In this document: positions 5,594-31,460 of the stretch, piece after piece
Position numbering within the stretch: the stretch's first letter is position 1
Layout of the letters: every line of letters starts with the position of its first letter
Assembly (NCBI GenBank): GCA_015065075.1
Contig: SVRA01000012.1
Span: forward strand, 1 to 32,091
DNA from: Oscillospiraceae bacterium
GTDB taxonomy: Bacteria; Bacillota; Clostridia; Oscillospirales; CAG-272
Reading direction: 5' to 3'
DNA: 32,091 bases
Notes under the pieces: model-generated
Told to the model about the DNA's origin: nothing
The model's database searches: none
Seen by the model: the letters and a program-made list of their open reading frames with translations, nothing else
Made by a program: the position numbers and the translations under genes

Positions 5594-7096
5594 ATGCTTT
5601 TCAGTTCTATGATATTCCTATGGGTCTTTTTGCCCGTAGTGATAGCCGGCAACTTTTTGTTCACGGCATTACCGTTTAAAAAGGAATCCTCGCGCATTCG
5701 CGCAAAAAATATTTTTCTGCTTATAGCGAGCCTTATATTCTACGCTTGGGGCGGAATCTACTATCTGCTTATCATGCTTTCGTCTATCCTGCTCAACTTT
5801 GCGGGTGGATACGTGATCGAGAAAGGTGTGAAAACCAAAGGAGCAAGACGCGCGGCGTTTATCGTTATAGTCGTGCTCAATATTGCGATACTTTTCTTCT
5901 TCAAGTATTTCAATATGCTTATCGCGATCATTGAGTCACTGATGCAGACCGGCGCGGGCTTCCGCGAGGTTTGGCAGACTATGCTGAGCATGGAGGGCAC
6001 GGGCACGCTCAACCTCGCCCAGATCGTACTTCCTATTGGCATATCCTTCTTTACCTTCCAGGCAATGTCCTACGTTATGGACGTTTATATGGGCAAGGCG
6101 AATCTACAGGAGAACATTATCGACTTTGCACTCTACGTTTCGCTTTTCCCCCAGCTTATCGCAGGCCCTATCGTCAAGTACAGCGACGTTGACCTTCAGC
6201 TTCAGACCAGAAAAGAGACCCTTGATCTTTTCATCTCGGGTCAAAAGCGATTCTGCTACGGTCTCGGCAAAAAGGTGCTGGTCTCAAACGTGCTTGCAGA
6301 GGTCGCAGACGACATCTGGGCGCTTGAGATCGAAAATCTCGGTGCACCTGTCGCGTGGCTTGGAATCATTGCTTATACCCTGCAGATCTATTTCGATTTC
6401 TCGGGATACTCCGACATGGCGATCGGTCTTGGTCGAATGATGGGCTTCGAGTTCAAGGAGAATTTCGATTACCCCTACACGTCGCTCTCTATTCAGGAAT
6501 TCTGGAGAAGATGGCATATCTCTCTGTCTTCCTGGTTCAAGGAATACATATACATTCCTCTGGGCGGAAACAGAAAGGGAAAATTCCGAACGTATATCAA
6601 TCTGTTCGTCGTATTTATGCTGACGGGTATCTGGCACGGTGCGAACTTCACGTTCATATTCTGGGGCTTGTTCCACGGTGTGCTTCAGATAATCGAGCGC
6701 CTCTTCCTTGGAAAGTGGCTCAAGAAAAACCCCATTAAGATCTTCAACTGGATATATACCATTTTTGCCGTTATGATCGGTTGGATATATTTCCGTTCGG
6801 ACAACATTTTCCAAGCGAACGAATACGTCCGACAGCTCTTTAACTTTACGTCGGGTAATTATTCGATCGTCAGGTTCCTTTCTATGAACGTTATTATCGT
6901 TGTCATTTTCGGATTTTTGTTCTCGGGTCTTGTGCAAAGATTGCTCAAGTCGAGCTATGAGAAGCTCTGCGCGGACGTGGTTTCGTCCCGCATGATCTTC
7001 ATTGCAGACTCGATAGTACAGTTTGCCATTCTCGCGCTCTCTATGGCGGCGCTCGTAGGCGGCACATACAACGCGTTCATTTATTTCCAATTCTGA
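5594..7096 (+). CDS. MBOAT-family membrane O-acyltransferase (AlgI/DltB-like)
   Basis: This is a 500-residue polytopic membrane protein of the AlgI branch of the MBOAT family. Such proteins move acyl groups, usually acetyl, across the membrane to surface polysaccharides or cell-wall polymers with an SGNH partner. Hallmarks are FWRRWHISLSSWFKEYIYIPLGG (about 303-325, quoted in part) and LTGIWHGANFTFIFWG, with the catalytic His at about 348. Ten or more hydrophobic segments are spread over the chain. GAAGG precedes the ATG. The AlgJ/DHHW-like gene follows after 55 bases and is the expected partner. The acceptor polymer cannot be told from sequence; D-alanylation is less likely because no dltA or dltC is nearby. 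Confidence 0.9.
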   Translation: MLFSSMIFLWVFLPVVIAGNFLFTALPFKKESSRIRAKNIFLLIASLIFYAWGGIYYLLIMLSSILLNFAGGYVIEKGVKTKGARRAAFIVIVVLNIAILFFFKYFNMLIAIIESLMQTGAGFREVWQTMLSMEGTGTLNLAQIVLPIGISFFTFQAMSYVMDVYMGKANLQENIIDFALYVSLFPQLIAGPIVKYSDVDLQLQTRKETLDLFISGQKRFCYGLGKKVLVSNVLAEVADDIWALEIENLGAPVAWLGIIAYTLQIYFDFSGYSDMAIGLGRMMGFEFKENFDYPYTSLSIQEFWRRWHISLSSWFKEYIYIPLGGNRKGKFRTYINLFVVFMLTGIWHGANFTFIFWGLFHGVLQIIERLFLGKWLKKNPIKIFNWIYTIFAVMIGWIYFRSDNIFQANEYVRQLFNFTSGNYSIVRFLSMNVIIVVIFGFLFSGLVQRLLKSSYEKLCADVVSSRMIFIADSIVQFAILALSMAALVGGTYNAFIYFQF

Positions 7097-7151: not shown

Positions 7152-8984
7152 ATGGATAAAGATAAAAACACTCCTCAAAACGAGAATCCGATCGAGAGTT
7201 CTCGGACACCAAAGCTCCCCAAGGGATTTGCGCTGACTTATATCGGTATTTTTGCAGCTATGCTGATCATTCCTACTATAATCTGGGGCGCTTTGATGAT
7301 AGCGTGCAGATTCTCGCCCGAGCTTTACGACACCATCAATCCCCCCGCAGATGAATCGCAGGGTATGGCGGGAGAAAAGATCGCAGAGTTTCCCACGACC
7401 TTCAAAATTAAGACGTATACCGCCGAGGTTGAGGCGTGGTACGACGATCATCTGCCTTTCAGATCCTTGATACGTAACTCGTACAGCGATCTTAAGGGTG
7501 CGGTCGAGCAGCCGTATGAATCGACCATTCGCCCCGCACTCATTCAGCTTTTCCACGGAAATAAAACCGTCGACGGCGGAGTTGCCGAGGTCCCCGAGAT
7601 CCCCATATTCCCCGAGGAAACATTTCCCGACATTTTTGACGAAACCACCCAGCAGTACCCCGAGGAGAGCGAGGGGAGCAAGGAGAGCGAGGAGGAGACC
7701 GTTCCCAGCTTTGAAAATGAGGAGACCTCGTCCACGGCTTGTGAGCACGTATACGACGTAGGCGTGATAGAGGTCGAGCCGACCTGCACAGACTGGGGCG
7801 TTATGAAATATTCCTGCACGAAATGCTCTCACAGCTACCGTGAATATACCGCAAAGAAATCACACGAATACGCGACCGCAATCGACACCTTCGATCTCGT
7901 AACCTGCGGCTCAAGATATGAGCGCGTTTTTAAGTGTAACGGTTGCGGACAAGAGAAGGACGAGTCGGGTATCAAGCAGCACAAAAACCACAAAAAGATA
8001 AAAACTGTCCAACCCTCTTATACTTCATACGGATACGTCTTAGCAAGCTGTAAATATTGCGGCGGAGAATACAGAACCGAGATCAAGGCCAAACCCTACG
8101 ATACCTCTTACGCTGTTGAGCGCGTTTGGAACAACCAAGCCATCGAGGGCAGACATCAATGGCTGTATTATCTCGGCGACAGCAGCATGGCGTACTATCA
8201 AGGCACGAATCTATTGAGCGACTCCGAATTAGAATATTACAAATCGATCCTCGTTCAACTTGACGAAATATGCAAGGCAAAGGGTATCACTCTTCAGATA
8301 TGTATCTGGCCAAATAAAGAGCAGGTATATCCCGAATATTATCTAGGTGCCGACGTTATAAACGAATATAAGCGCGTCGAACGACTTGTGGATTATATAC
8401 ACGACAACTCCGAGGTCAAGATCGTTTATCCTTTAGATGAGTTGACGGCTGCCAAGCCCTATTGGGACGTATATTACAAATTCGATACCCACTGGAATAG
8501 AGCAGGGGCGTTTATCGGATATCAGGCAATGATGGAAAGCTTGGGTCTTGAGACTATGAATCTTTATCGGCTTCCCGTAAAAGAATACGAGTACAACGGG
8601 GGAGATCTTTTCAGTATTGGTAAAATTAACAGCGCTTACTATTCAGGAGGAGTTGACTACGGCATTACATATCGCTCGAATATAACGACAGATTCGTATT
8701 TTGGAGCAGACGGCGCGGGCGACATCAGACACACGACCGCGGCAAACGCTACGAACGATTGCAATTTCGTTATGCTTGCCGATTCCTACAGATGCTTTCA
8801 GTTAGACCTTCTCCAAAGGGATTTTTCGGATTGCTATCTCTGTCACAGAAATCAGGTTGGTGATCCGATGACGGTAGAGGCGATAAAGAATGCCGATATT
8901 CTCGTTCTTGCCGCTGTTGAGCGATACGATTACGATATCTTCGCCACGGCTCAACATATTATAAATATTCTTTCTCAAGAATAA
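7152..8984 (+). CDS. AlgJ/DHHW-like SGNH acyltransferase partner with inserted CxxC modules
   Basis: This 610-residue protein has one N-terminal membrane segment (about 25-52) and an extracellular remainder. A DHHW-like motif (YDDHLPFRS) lies at about 97-104. The SGNH hydrolase-like half (about 330-610) shows block I GDSSMAYYQG, the DTHW motif (D445, H447) and a late ADSY serine, as in AlgJ/AlgX-type acetyltransferases. Between the two parts are an acidic stretch (about 166-195, EESEGSKESEEE) and a segment with three CxxC modules: CTKC at 222, CNGC at 262 and CKYC at 300. Ordinary family members lack this insert. With the MBOAT protein upstream it probably O-acetylates a surface glycan. AGGTATTT gives only a weak ribosome binding site. 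Confidence 0.82.
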   Translation: MDKDKNTPQNENPIESSRTPKLPKGFALTYIGIFAAMLIIPTIIWGALMIACRFSPELYDTINPPADESQGMAGEKIAEFPTTFKIKTYTAEVEAWYDDHLPFRSLIRNSYSDLKGAVEQPYESTIRPALIQLFHGNKTVDGGVAEVPEIPIFPEETFPDIFDETTQQYPEESEGSKESEEETVPSFENEETSSTACEHVYDVGVIEVEPTCTDWGVMKYSCTKCSHSYREYTAKKSHEYATAIDTFDLVTCGSRYERVFKCNGCGQEKDESGIKQHKNHKKIKTVQPSYTSYGYVLASCKYCGGEYRTEIKAKPYDTSYAVERVWNNQAIEGRHQWLYYLGDSSMAYYQGTNLLSDSELEYYKSILVQLDEICKAKGITLQICIWPNKEQVYPEYYLGADVINEYKRVERLVDYIHDNSEVKIVYPLDELTAAKPYWDVYYKFDTHWNRAGAFIGYQAMMESLGLETMNLYRLPVKEYEYNGGDLFSIGKINSAYYSGGVDYGITYRSNITTDSYFGADGAGDIRHTTAANATNDCNFVMLADSYRCFQLDLLQRDFSDCYLCHRNQVGDPMTVEAIKNADILVLAAVERYDYDIFATAQHIINILSQE

Positions 8985-19591: not shown

Positions 19592-21064
19592 TTATTTGAA
19601 TTTGCGTTTTTGGATTGCAAAGCATACTGATAGCCCAAGCGCGATCAGACTCGGCAAGATGCTGACAGCCACGCTTGATCTGCAACCGAAGGCGTTTGGC
19701 TTTTCGGAATATACCGCAGTATATACTATGCTTTCGGTTATTTTCGCGGGGATCTCATCGACTCCCCAGCCCTCAAAGCACTCGTCGTCGACCTCGGGCG
19801 GCTCGACAAGGTCTCCGTAATATCCTTTGATCTCCTTGAGCACTTTTCCGTCGGAATCCGCAAAGGTGACGGTATATAAGGTCTCATCCCACTGGGCAAC
19901 GAGGATTGTTTTTTTATCAATATCGCTAAGCGTATCGCCCGATTGCAAAAGCTCGCCCGTTTCGATCACCTTCCAACCGACGAAGCCCGAGGTCTCTCTT
20001 GTGATCTCGGGATCGGGAAGGGCGATCGTGGTAGACGGGAGCACGGCAAATCTCGTGACATATTCATTTTCCGCATCGTGAATGAGCTCTATCGCCTCGG
20101 TTGCTCCGTCAGATGATATCTGGACGGCCTTTTTTGCCGCTTTCGCATAGCCCCCGTAAGTTTTCCCGTCTTTTTGATAGCTGATTTTAAAGCAATCGCC
20201 GTATCTCTCTTTTACCGTAAGAAGCTCGTAAGCGCCCAGGACGTCGGAGTTTTCACTCATTTTTTCATCTGAATAGACGTTTATTTCGCCTTTTGAGATA
20301 TACAGTCCCGAGGACATTTCCTCACCTGAATGATCCACCTTCAAAGCCGTTTCGTCTGTCTTGTATTTTGGCGATGCGTACCCAACTATGTATTTGTCCG
20401 ACAATTTATACGAGCGAAGGCAAACGTAATGTCCTGCGGTCGACAGAGCGCTGCCGCTTGATGCGTTTCCTTCGATCGTATACACGCGGTTTTCGTCCGA
20501 ATAAAGAACCATACCTATATGAGTGGAGGTCACCGAGCTGCCCGCGTCCTTGAAAAAGATAAGGTCTGCTGTTTTGGGAGCATAGTTTTTCTTTTCAACG
20601 TATATTCCCATATCCTTGCAATCCGCAAGCCAGCGGCGGCAGCTAACCTCGGATCCCGATGCGGTCTTTTCTACTCTCGATTGGCGTAAGCACCAATTCA
20701 CAAACGAGGCGCACCATGCGTATCCGTAGCTCAGTCCATTACCCTCTTGGTTGTCGAGCTTGCCGTAAAGGACGTTGTATTCGACAAAATTTTTCGTGCC
20801 CGAGGAGTTCATTCCGTCAAGGTCAGAATCTCCGTCTCCCTCGTGATATCCGAGCTGTGAGAGCGCTATTGCGATAACGTCGGTTGCCTGATCGCCCGTC
20901 AGCTCTATTCGCCCAAGATGCTCGTAATATTTACTGCTTTTGTATTCCTCGGACACCTGATAGGTCTCGGTCACTGCTGAGGTCTCAAGTGTGCACAGCC
21001 CCGATGTCGTAGTGATCATCAAAGCAAAAAGGACAAGGCACGCTAATGCTTTTTTTATATTCAT
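19592..21064 (-). CDS. Secreted, membrane-anchored CHAP-domain peptidoglycan amidase
   Basis: The 490 residues start with a signal peptide (about 1-30). A CHAP/NlpC-type domain follows (about 60-235) with the likely triad Cys118 (YAWCASFVNWC), His182 (THIGMVLYS) and Asn200 (IEGN). An SH3-like segment (about 250-315) and two InlB-type B-repeats (about 325-395 and 395-450, with TVTFADSDGKVLKE and FEGWG) come next. A C-terminal hydrophobic stretch (about 465-484) and basic tail QKRKFK suggest a membrane anchor; there is no LPXTG motif. It probably cleaves peptidoglycan peptides or amides at the cell surface. GGAG lies upstream of the ATG behind a consensus promoter. Confidence 0.87.
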   Translation of the reverse strand: MNIKKALACLVLFALMITTTSGLCTLETSAVTETYQVSEEYKSSKYYEHLGRIELTGDQATDVIAIALSQLGYHEGDGDSDLDGMNSSGTKNFVEYNVLYGKLDNQEGNGLSYGYAWCASFVNWCLRQSRVEKTASGSEVSCRRWLADCKDMGIYVEKKNYAPKTADLIFFKDAGSSVTSTHIGMVLYSDENRVYTIEGNASSGSALSTAGHYVCLRSYKLSDKYIVGYASPKYKTDETALKVDHSGEEMSSGLYISKGEINVYSDEKMSENSDVLGAYELLTVKERYGDCFKISYQKDGKTYGGYAKAAKKAVQISSDGATEAIELIHDAENEYVTRFAVLPSTTIALPDPEITRETSGFVGWKVIETGELLQSGDTLSDIDKKTILVAQWDETLYTVTFADSDGKVLKEIKGYYGDLVEPPEVDDECFEGWGVDEIPAKITESIVYTAVYSEKPNAFGCRSSVAVSILPSLIALGLSVCFAIQKRKFK

Positions 21065-29198: not shown

Positions 29199-31460
29199 AT
29201 GAAAATCAACCGAATTATTGCTGTGCTTCTCGTTTTGGTCTTGATCGGCTCCGTGGTACTGACGGCTTGCGAGGGCTCATCCAAAAAAGAAGAAAACCAG
29301 TCTACCGAAACAACAACCAACGAAGAGGCCTCTAAAGGTGAAGAAAGCTCATCCAAGATTGAGGAAAGTTCTTCAAAAAGCGAAGAAAGTTCTTCAAAGA
29401 GCGAGGAAAGTTCTTCAAAGAGCGAGGAAAGCTCGTCCAACAGTGAGGACACCACATCCGAAAGAGAGGAAGAGACAACGGTGATAATCGACATTATGAT
29501 AGGCGAGACGCTCGACGCCGAGCCCGCGGCAGACTTCTCGGTATCGAAAGTATTCTCGGACTACATGGTCGTTCAGAGAGGCGAGCACATTCGCGTTTGG
29601 GGCTTTGCTCCCGAAAGCGAGAACGGCAAGAAGGTATCGGGTGAATTCAAGGGTATGTTTGCCGAGGCAATTGTCGAAAACGGCGAATGGTGCATTACCT
29701 TCGGCGCAAGACTTGAAGCCGACACTGTCGGAGCAGAGATGTCCATATATGCAGGTGATAATAAGACCGTCACGTTCAAGGACGTGCTTGTCGGCGACGT
29801 TTATCTCGTTCTCGGTCAGTCCAACGCGGCGCTCGCACTCAGCGAGTCGGTCAAGGGCGGAAACACTGTCGACATCGACGAAAACTCAATAATCAGACTT
29901 AACTATCTCAACGGCAGCGGTGGCACATACGCCGAAAAGGGAACAGATTACGTTTACAAGGATCTCGAAAACACGACCTTGTGGACAAAGACCACTCAAG
30001 CTTATGCACTCCGTTTCTCCGGTATCGGATACCATTTCGCACAGGAAATGGTTGCAAGATCGGGCAATTCTGTGCCCGTAGGTCTTATGGAGGTTGCTTA
30101 CGGTGGCGCACCCTTGGCGTCCTTCCTGCCTAACGATCTCGCAGAGCTTTACGATTCTGATTACTATAGTGCGGACACGGGCAAATATATTTCTATGAGA
30201 GATACCACGCATTTTGGAAGATATCTCTACAATTGCTATCTCGCTCCCGCGAGCAGATACGCGGTTGCGGGTGTGCTCTGGTATCAGGGAGAGAGCGATA
30301 ATCCTCTGAATTTCGCACAGGTATACGGTGACGAGTTCGGTGATTTCGTTGAGCATCTCAGATCTACTCACAACGTGATCAACAAGGAATTCCCCGTATT
30401 CGTCGTTGAATTCCCCACACAGTATCAAAAACCCGCGGATTACAGCGGAAGCGACCCTTGGCACTATATGGAGGTTGGCACTATCCGTACCTTTATGGGT
30501 CTTCTTCCCACGGTTATTGACGGCTGCTATCTTTCGGCGTCCAGCGATCTGTGGACCGACACAAGCTTCCCCAACAGTCTACACCCAAATTGCAAGCCCG
30601 GTCAGGCAAAGAGACTTGCCGATATTGCGGAGTTTGTGATATTCGGAAAAGGAACGCTTGATGATGCTATGGGTCCGATCTTCAGCAGCGCTGCGCTGAG
30701 CGAGGACAAGAAGACAATTACCGTTACCTTTACGAATGTGGGAGAGGGTCTTACCACCGCCGACGGCGGAGCTGCCGTAAAGGGTATTTGCGGATTTTCG
30801 GAAAAGACATTTGGTCTTGCCACGCCCCTGACTCCTGTGAGCGCAGAGATAACCGCAAAGGACCAGATCACCGTGACCTTTGACGAGGCGGTCAAGGCGG
30901 TAGCATACAACTACAACACCACCGACGTTTACGGCGAGACCCTGAACCTTTGCAACAGCGCGAAGATTCCTGCGCTGGCATTTATCACTCCTTATGAGGA
31001 TATGGATCTCAGTGGATTTTCGGAGGATGAGTTCGTTTCAAGAAAGAACAAGAACCTCCGCTTGCAAGGAGCTTTCATTGACAGACTGATATCAGACGGA
31101 GCAGATATATTTACTCCCGGCAGCGTTGAGCCGGGTCTCAACGCAGGTGGAAACAAGATAGAGATAACAAAGGGATCTTCGTCTCTCAGCTGCACCGGCT
31201 GGATTGGCTACGGATATCCTACATTGGCGTTTGGCTATTCACTCGACGGCAGCGATGCTATTCTGAAAATCGCTCCGACCGCACCCGAGGCGGCGGTTCT
31301 TACGGCGGGCGGTGAGCACGCGGTGAGATTTGCAATCAACATTGACGTAAGCGATCTTGAGGTCGGTGAGCATACCGTTTCGTTCCTCGCGTTTGTTGAC
31401 GCTAATGACGGAACTGTAGCAAAGCTTCTTTCCTTTACCGTTGTCGTAGTTGAAAAGTAA
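29199..31460 (+). CDS. Lipoprotein with sialate-O-acetylesterase-like SGNH domain
   Basis: The 753 residues begin with a lipoprotein signal peptide and lipobox LTAC (Cys24). A Ser/Glu/Lys stalk follows (about 25-95), built from five heptads of the type EESSSKS. The SGNH/SASA esterase domain (about 110-480) has the nucleophile in LGQSN (Ser208), the block GVLWYQGESDN (about 359-368) and the catalytic His in SLHPNCKPG (about 462), as in carbohydrate 9-O-acetylesterases. A beta-rich C-terminal part (about 490-753) is unassigned. It probably deacetylates host or plant glycans outside the cell. AAGGAG precedes the ATG. It is monocistronic, closed by a 16-bp terminator. Confidence 0.87.
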   Translation: MKINRIIAVLLVLVLIGSVVLTACEGSSKKEENQSTETTTNEEASKGEESSSKIEESSSKSEESSSKSEESSSKSEESSSNSEDTTSEREEETTVIIDIMIGETLDAEPAADFSVSKVFSDYMVVQRGEHIRVWGFAPESENGKKVSGEFKGMFAEAIVENGEWCITFGARLEADTVGAEMSIYAGDNKTVTFKDVLVGDVYLVLGQSNAALALSESVKGGNTVDIDENSIIRLNYLNGSGGTYAEKGTDYVYKDLENTTLWTKTTQAYALRFSGIGYHFAQEMVARSGNSVPVGLMEVAYGGAPLASFLPNDLAELYDSDYYSADTGKYISMRDTTHFGRYLYNCYLAPASRYAVAGVLWYQGESDNPLNFAQVYGDEFGDFVEHLRSTHNVINKEFPVFVVEFPTQYQKPADYSGSDPWHYMEVGTIRTFMGLLPTVIDGCYLSASSDLWTDTSFPNSLHPNCKPGQAKRLADIAEFVIFGKGTLDDAMGPIFSSAALSEDKKTITVTFTNVGEGLTTADGGAAVKGICGFSEKTFGLATPLTPVSAEITAKDQITVTFDEAVKAVAYNYNTTDVYGETLNLCNSAKIPALAFITPYEDMDLSGFSEDEFVSRKNKNLRLQGAFIDRLISDGADIFTPGSVEPGLNAGGNKIEITKGSSSLSCTGWIGYGYPTLAFGYSLDGSDAILKIAPTAPEAAVLTAGGEHAVRFAINIDVSDLEVGEHTVSFLAFVDANDGTVAKLLSFTVVVVEK
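29340..29444 (+). repeat. Five 21-bp tandem repeats in the lipoprotein stalk
   Basis: Five in-frame units of the form GAGGAAAGTTCTTCAAAGAG plus C encode EESSSKS-type heptads. Units 2 to 4 are nearly identical at DNA level, and units 1 and 5 are more diverged. Such repeats can change copy number by slippage without a frameshift. Confidence 0.9.

Follow-up and report, generated by a model that had tools for sequence, protein, structure and literature searches.

Gene content of the window

The window, by which we mean the whole stretch of 32,091 nucleotides that was analysed, contains two adjacent forward-strand genes, one for an MBOAT membrane O-acyltransferase and, directly downstream of it, one for an SGNH acyltransferase that bears an insert of three CxxC modules (Table 1). 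From their sequences, the two are best interpreted as a pair that forms a surface O-acyltransferase of the MBOAT-SGNH type, since the MBOAT protein ends in FIYFQF and the motifs of its neighbour are kept in HSGN order. The terminal FIYFQF (7076–7093) fits the acyl-shuttle motif FXYXXF, the Tyr of which is acetylated by PatA before the acetyl group is passed to PatB (PMC12148441). A directly upstream MBOAT with the same ending was found here and in every ortholog checked. The MBOAT partners of the more distant homologs L169–L172 and L174 end in SIYGNF or SIYQNF, with the Tyr kept and the first Phe replaced by Ser.

Table 1. Features of the MBOAT-SGNH gene pair (window coordinates; residue numbers refer to the product of 7152–8984).
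Feature	Coordinates	Strand	Evidence
MBOAT membrane O-acyltransferase, partner gene	5594–7096	+	Pfam MBOAT 3.4e-30
AlgJ/DHHW-like SGNH acyltransferase bearing the insert, 610 aa	7152–8984	+	Pfam ALGX 7.1e-11, DHHW 1.7e-6; PDB PatB1, AlgJ
N-terminal membrane helix, residues 26–52	7227–7307	+	Sequence; helix 26–54 in low-confidence AF2 model
Conserved helical segment with DHLPFR, residues 75–136	7374–7559	+	Kept in orthologs, L040 and L169–L174
Acidic low-complexity linker, residues ~137–194	7560–7733	+	Sequence
Module 1, residues 197–237: cap C197-E-H199, C212 (PTC), C222-x-x-C225	7740–7862	+	HMM 34.7 bits; AF2 pLDDT mostly ~95
Module 2, residues 238–279: H238, C252, C262-x-x-C265; diverged	7863–7988	+	HMM 4.7 bits; in register in alignment; AF2
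Module 3, residues 280–316: H280, Y290 replacing PTC Cys, C300-x-x-C303	7989–8099	+	HMM 15.7 bits; alignment; AF2
SGNH domain, residues 331–610	8142–8981	+	Pfam, PDB sequences, motif comparison; motif order from PMC9487903

The SGNH protein passed the curated Pfam cut-offs for ALGX (42.7 bits vs 26.5; match over residues 331–478) and DHHW (28 vs 25), and its closest solved sequences were B. cereus PatB1 and AlgJ. Its catalytic domain contains PNKE (387–390), KFDTHW with D445-T-H447-W, and D544-S545. The PNKE, DTHW and later DS motifs are kept in homologs, and D445 and H447 precede S545, as in the AlgX/DHHW group, which has PxK and TDTHW-type motifs and a Ser-His-Asp triad in HSGN order (PMC9487903). 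A preliminary description of this DNA, made from the sequence alone, had already named the protein an AlgJ-like acyltransferase, and these matches bear that out. The nucleophile motif (residues 543–545; 8778–8786) reads ADS; it is SDS in L013 and GDS in homologs outside the genus.

The preliminary description had also placed an acidic linker between membrane anchor and modules, and the SGNH domain after them; we recovered this layout and add to it a conserved helical stretch between membrane helix and linker. The full-length AF2 model (610 aa, four sequences) had a pLDDT of 34.7. By analogy with PatB, the helical segment is expected to dock on the MBOAT protein; the N-terminal region of PatB was modelled as associated with PatA and is reported to be dispensable for in vitro catalysis (PMC12148441).

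Three other regions of the window were annotated. Genes for a STAS protein, an anti-sigma-type ATPase and a sigma factor lie in a row at 488–2231 and resemble the spoIIAA-spoIIAB-sigF operon of spore formers, a CHAP-domain protein is encoded at 19592–21064 (-), and a SASA-type acetylesterase-like protein at 29199–31460 (+).

The insert consists of three related modules

The insert (residues 197–316, DNA 7740–8099) comprises three copies of a module of ~39 residues with the pattern H-x-Y...PTC...G.....CxxC. The CxxC units on which the preliminary description was based, CTKC (222–225), CNGC (262–265) and CKYC (300–303), lie where it had put them; to these we add a PTC-type Cys in modules 1 and 2 and a C-x-H opening of the array. 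A test HMM built solely from modules of other proteins matched residues 199–238 (34.7 bits), 251–272 (4.7) and 284–314 (15.7), for a total of 44.7 bits (E = 3.7e-16), compared to a maximum of 10.9 among 2000 shuffled versions of the segment. Module 2 was weak alone, yet it kept its register when aligned to 50 stretches of three modules from other loci.

All orthologs within the genus (73–79% and 43% identity) carry the insert; the named relatives are Clostridia MAGs of ruminant-gut origin. C197, H199, C212, C222, C225, H238, C252, C262, C265, C300 and C303 did not vary among five orthologs with identities as low as 43%. The earlier proposal of conserved His and Tyr spacing stands for the His residues, with H280 of module 3 slightly shifted in the 43%-identity ortholog, and in part for Tyr. 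H227 and H277 fall outside the predicted ligand sets, as do one or two His in L169, L174 and L177. The insert has nine Cys and most homologs have five or three, i.e., odd numbers throughout.

AF2 of the insert (54 sequences; a metal-free model, read from its confidence and strands) gave a mean pLDDT of 88.5 and nine strands, three per module, with a pTM of 0.51 that leaves the relative placement of the modules uncertain. In this model the insert is a beta fold independent of the SGNH fold. Foldseek against the PDB returned no solved structure matching the fold at E ≤ 0.001; the zinc-ribbon protein NrdR appeared with a probability of 0.57, a weak resemblance, and the sole strong Foldseek matches were predicted phage proteins bearing S-layer-homology and leucine-rich-repeat annotations. 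The ligand pattern and AF2 strands correspond to what defines a zinc ribbon, namely a small beta unit on which two knuckles supply four Cys/His ligands.

Copy number in homologous enzymes

We searched for the insert in other DHHW/AlgJ proteins, as the preliminary description had suggested. Family and order searches pointed to an insert confined to one genus, an idea that was dropped when a search of the class found one- and two-module versions elsewhere. SGNH homologs in other families of the class had 0, 1 or 2 modules at the insert position. A single module, with a cap and CxxC and without a PTC Cys, is present in the enzymes L172 (ligands H,H,C,C) and L177 (C,H,C,C and an additional His), and is in each case by sequence one complete zinc-ribbon-type unit; L169, L170, L171 and L174 combine two modules with one PTC Cys; the window enzyme and L013 have three modules and two PTC Cys. 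L013, L170, L171 and L172 contain exactly 4N Cys plus His for N modules, and none besides. In some homologs that share the anchoring helices, the SGNH domain follows directly or after a low-complexity linker alone. Linkers at this position vary in length and are P/T-rich (L169–L174, in place of the acidic linker) or P/D/E-rich (L040).

The module is a repeat of surface proteins

The module was found in 82 of 98 genomes of this bacterial family, often many times and with up to tens of matches each, and, at a stricter threshold, in 3 of 150 genomes phylum-wide. At least four other proteins of this genome carry it. The preliminary description had likened the modules to repeats of gut Firmicutes surface proteins; the same module indeed recurs across surface proteins of this family's genomes, including many large ones of widely different make-up and length. 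HMM, alignment and ligand order all relate the window modules to an uncatalogued gut Clostridia repeat, GHxYxxxVTxPTCTxxGYTTYTCxxCG, from which they differ in the divergence of module 2, in numbering only three, and in lying inside an acyltransferase rather than a large surface protein.

In four proteins, an array that follows an N-terminal lipobox or membrane helix stands ahead of a GH25 lysozyme domain; one of the four belongs to this genome, and the combination of GH25 with arrays recurs in three other genomes. Arrays also accompany Amidase_3 and SLH domains. The GH25 protein of this genome (L008:934-2565, G000:C107) is a lipoprotein with seven modules, the first with a CKH cap and the last with PTV replacing PTC. 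An open frame of 27,536 aa containing modules (G021:C18) is an exceptionally large surface protein. Single CxH...NGDGTH...CxxC units lie beside arrays in L096 and L117; these look different and have a similar layout as small Cys/His units.

Pfam and NCBIfam models gave nothing above cut-off on canonical arrays, PDB sequences gave no credible match to the module, and open-access papers yielded no description of the repeat strings or of tandem zinc ribbons, although an earlier description elsewhere is possible.

A ligand rule across arrays

Modules were written as H_i ... C1_i (PTC) ... C2_i-x-x-C3_i, and the cap as [C/H]-x-H. The PTC Cys (C1) went with the His of the next module, which was present after 396 of 419 modules having C1 vs 9 of 30 without it (p = 3e-17); it was not coupled to the His of its own module, which was present either way. 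Array starts were capped in 41 of 78 cases vs 21 of 380 internal positions in a first set, and in 49 of 87 vs 4 of 255 in held-out loci, where 38 of the 87 starts had no recognised cap; the module finders were based on regular expressions, and some array starts and ends misfit, part of them visible mis-splits. The last module lacked C1 in 53 of 70 arrays vs 80 of 413 other modules (first set), and C1 was absent from 47 of 69 array ends vs 13 of 255 followed modules (p = 9e-28; held-out loci). Among the 255 held-out linked modules, 242 had a preceding C1 only, 4 a cap only, none both and 9 neither, some of the latter being visible mis-parses. These p-values come from related sequences and overstate independence, and the copy-number series and held-out set are the better evidence. 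An earlier test of cap vs preceding PTC Cys, using a loose regular expression, lost sharpness owing to short variants of the module within giant arrays; the start/end and held-out tests took its place.

The window array fits the rule for starts and ends, opening with C197-E-H199 and closing with a module that has Y290 in place of the PTC Cys. At the cap, His may replace Cys (HEH, HVH, HTH) while CxxC is unchanged. Taken across hundreds of modules, the sequences are consistent with N modules giving 4N Cys/His ligands.

Discussion

We propose, with a probability of about 0.6, that the insert is a set of three zinc-ribbon-like modules with neighbour-shared metal sites that forms a semi-rigid stalk between the membrane side and the SGNH domain. 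Each module would be an extracellular three-stranded beta unit, and each metal site would consist of {cap or C1_(i-1), H_i, C2_i, C3_i}, i.e., the His and CxxC of the module itself plus one outside ligand, supplied to the first module by the residue that opens the [C/H]-x-H cap and to later modules by the preceding PTC Cys. The predicted tetrads in the window are C197-H199-C222-C225, C212-H238-C262-C265 and C252-H280-C300-C303, with Y290 standing where a further site would begin. The three-stranded meander would bring H_i and CxxC_i together at one of its ends and put C1_i and the next His at the opposite end, from which the following module starts, so that the metal site would fall at the joint between modules. 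Consecutive modules may thus be pinned by shared sites into a metal-zippered ladder, the last module of which needs no PTC Cys. The computations establish the identity of the modules, their independent beta fold, the ligand rule, the variation in copy number and the association with the MBOAT. We infer metal binding by the ligands (probably of Zn2+), the bridging of modules by the sites and the role of the array as a stalk.

Other readings of the Cys and His residues were weighed against this one. That the segment simply belongs to the SGNH/DHHW fold, the finding that the preliminary description said would overturn it, is refuted by DHHW/AlgJ homologs in which the helical segment leads straight into the SGNH domain, by the match to an HMM from unrelated proteins and by the separate beta fold in the AF2 model. 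The preliminary description had left the choice between zinc-ribbon-like and disulfide modules, and its zinc-ribbon-like option is favoured. Disulfides are the usual cross-link of extracytoplasmic proteins, of which the host protein is one, but modules stabilised in this way are most improbable given the odd Cys counts and the Cys-His coupling, which is a prediction of shared metal ligation; metal is favoured because His replaces Cys at the cap while CxxC stays. Only slightly less improbable is a metal site within one repeat unit, made of the PTC Cys, the CxxC and the His opening the next unit, with no cap ligand. Such a site equally explains why the PTC Cys is coupled to the following His, but it leaves the cap and the last CxxC partnerless, and the one-module L172 and L177, without PTC Cys or following His, nevertheless keep cap and CxxC.

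As for the use of the array, the preliminary description proposed that the modules could anchor or position the enzyme at the wall. Binding to a wall polymer or another surface protein, the most serious of the alternatives although itself unlikely, draws on the presence of the same arrays in proteins that all act at the wall, namely GH25 lysozymes, one Amidase_3 protein and one with SLH. Against it, the enzyme is already membrane-anchored, some homologs have one copy or none, disordered linkers occupy the same place, and arrays occur in large surface proteins of varied make-up and length, as a spacer predicts. A semi-rigid spacer is the most likely use and a somewhat better fit than wall binding, because 0–3 modules or disordered linkers share one position and the order anchor, array, enzyme recurs with GH25. 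Placed between the docking helices and flexible acidic linker, on the membrane side, and the SGNH domain, such a stalk would lift the catalytic domain off the membrane, so that it could pick up acetyl at the membrane from the C-terminal Tyr of the MBOAT and still get to glycan acceptors that lie farther out in the wall. A stalk beyond the PatB-like N-terminal region need not disturb acetyl transfer, because that region of PatB is dispensable in vitro.

PatA/PatB, PatA1/PatB1 and AlgI/AlgJ share with the present pair an MBOAT with an FXYXXF C-terminus beside a membrane-anchored SGNH protein, DxH before DS (HSGN order), and the PNKE and DTHW motifs. Compared to these systems, the window enzyme adds a linker and a zinc-ribbon-like array between anchoring helices and SGNH domain, and its genus has ADS rather than GDS as nucleophile motif. 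Zinc ribbons such as those of NrdR and TFIIS are likewise small beta units in which a CxxC knuckle is paired with CxH or HxH; the window modules differ in being tandem and extracellular, with one ligand per site apparently contributed by the preceding repeat.

The repeat occurs in most genomes of this family, yet no Pfam/NCBIfam model, solved relative or paper was found for it. On balance, and with a little less conviction than for the insert itself, we lean towards regarding it as an undescribed and very abundant extracellular metalloprotein architecture, in which tandem zinc ribbons, zippered by neighbour-shared ligands between a start cap and an end module, would form stalks for wall enzymes and giant surface proteins of gut Clostridia. 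The cap/PTC/CxxC rule offers a simple, testable structure and would let annotators recognise where arrays start and end, and the 0–3 modules within one enzyme family are a graded natural series for spacing effects in MBOAT-SGNH acylation. If the proposal is true, the surface of anaerobic gut bacteria would have extracellular zinc among its structural components.
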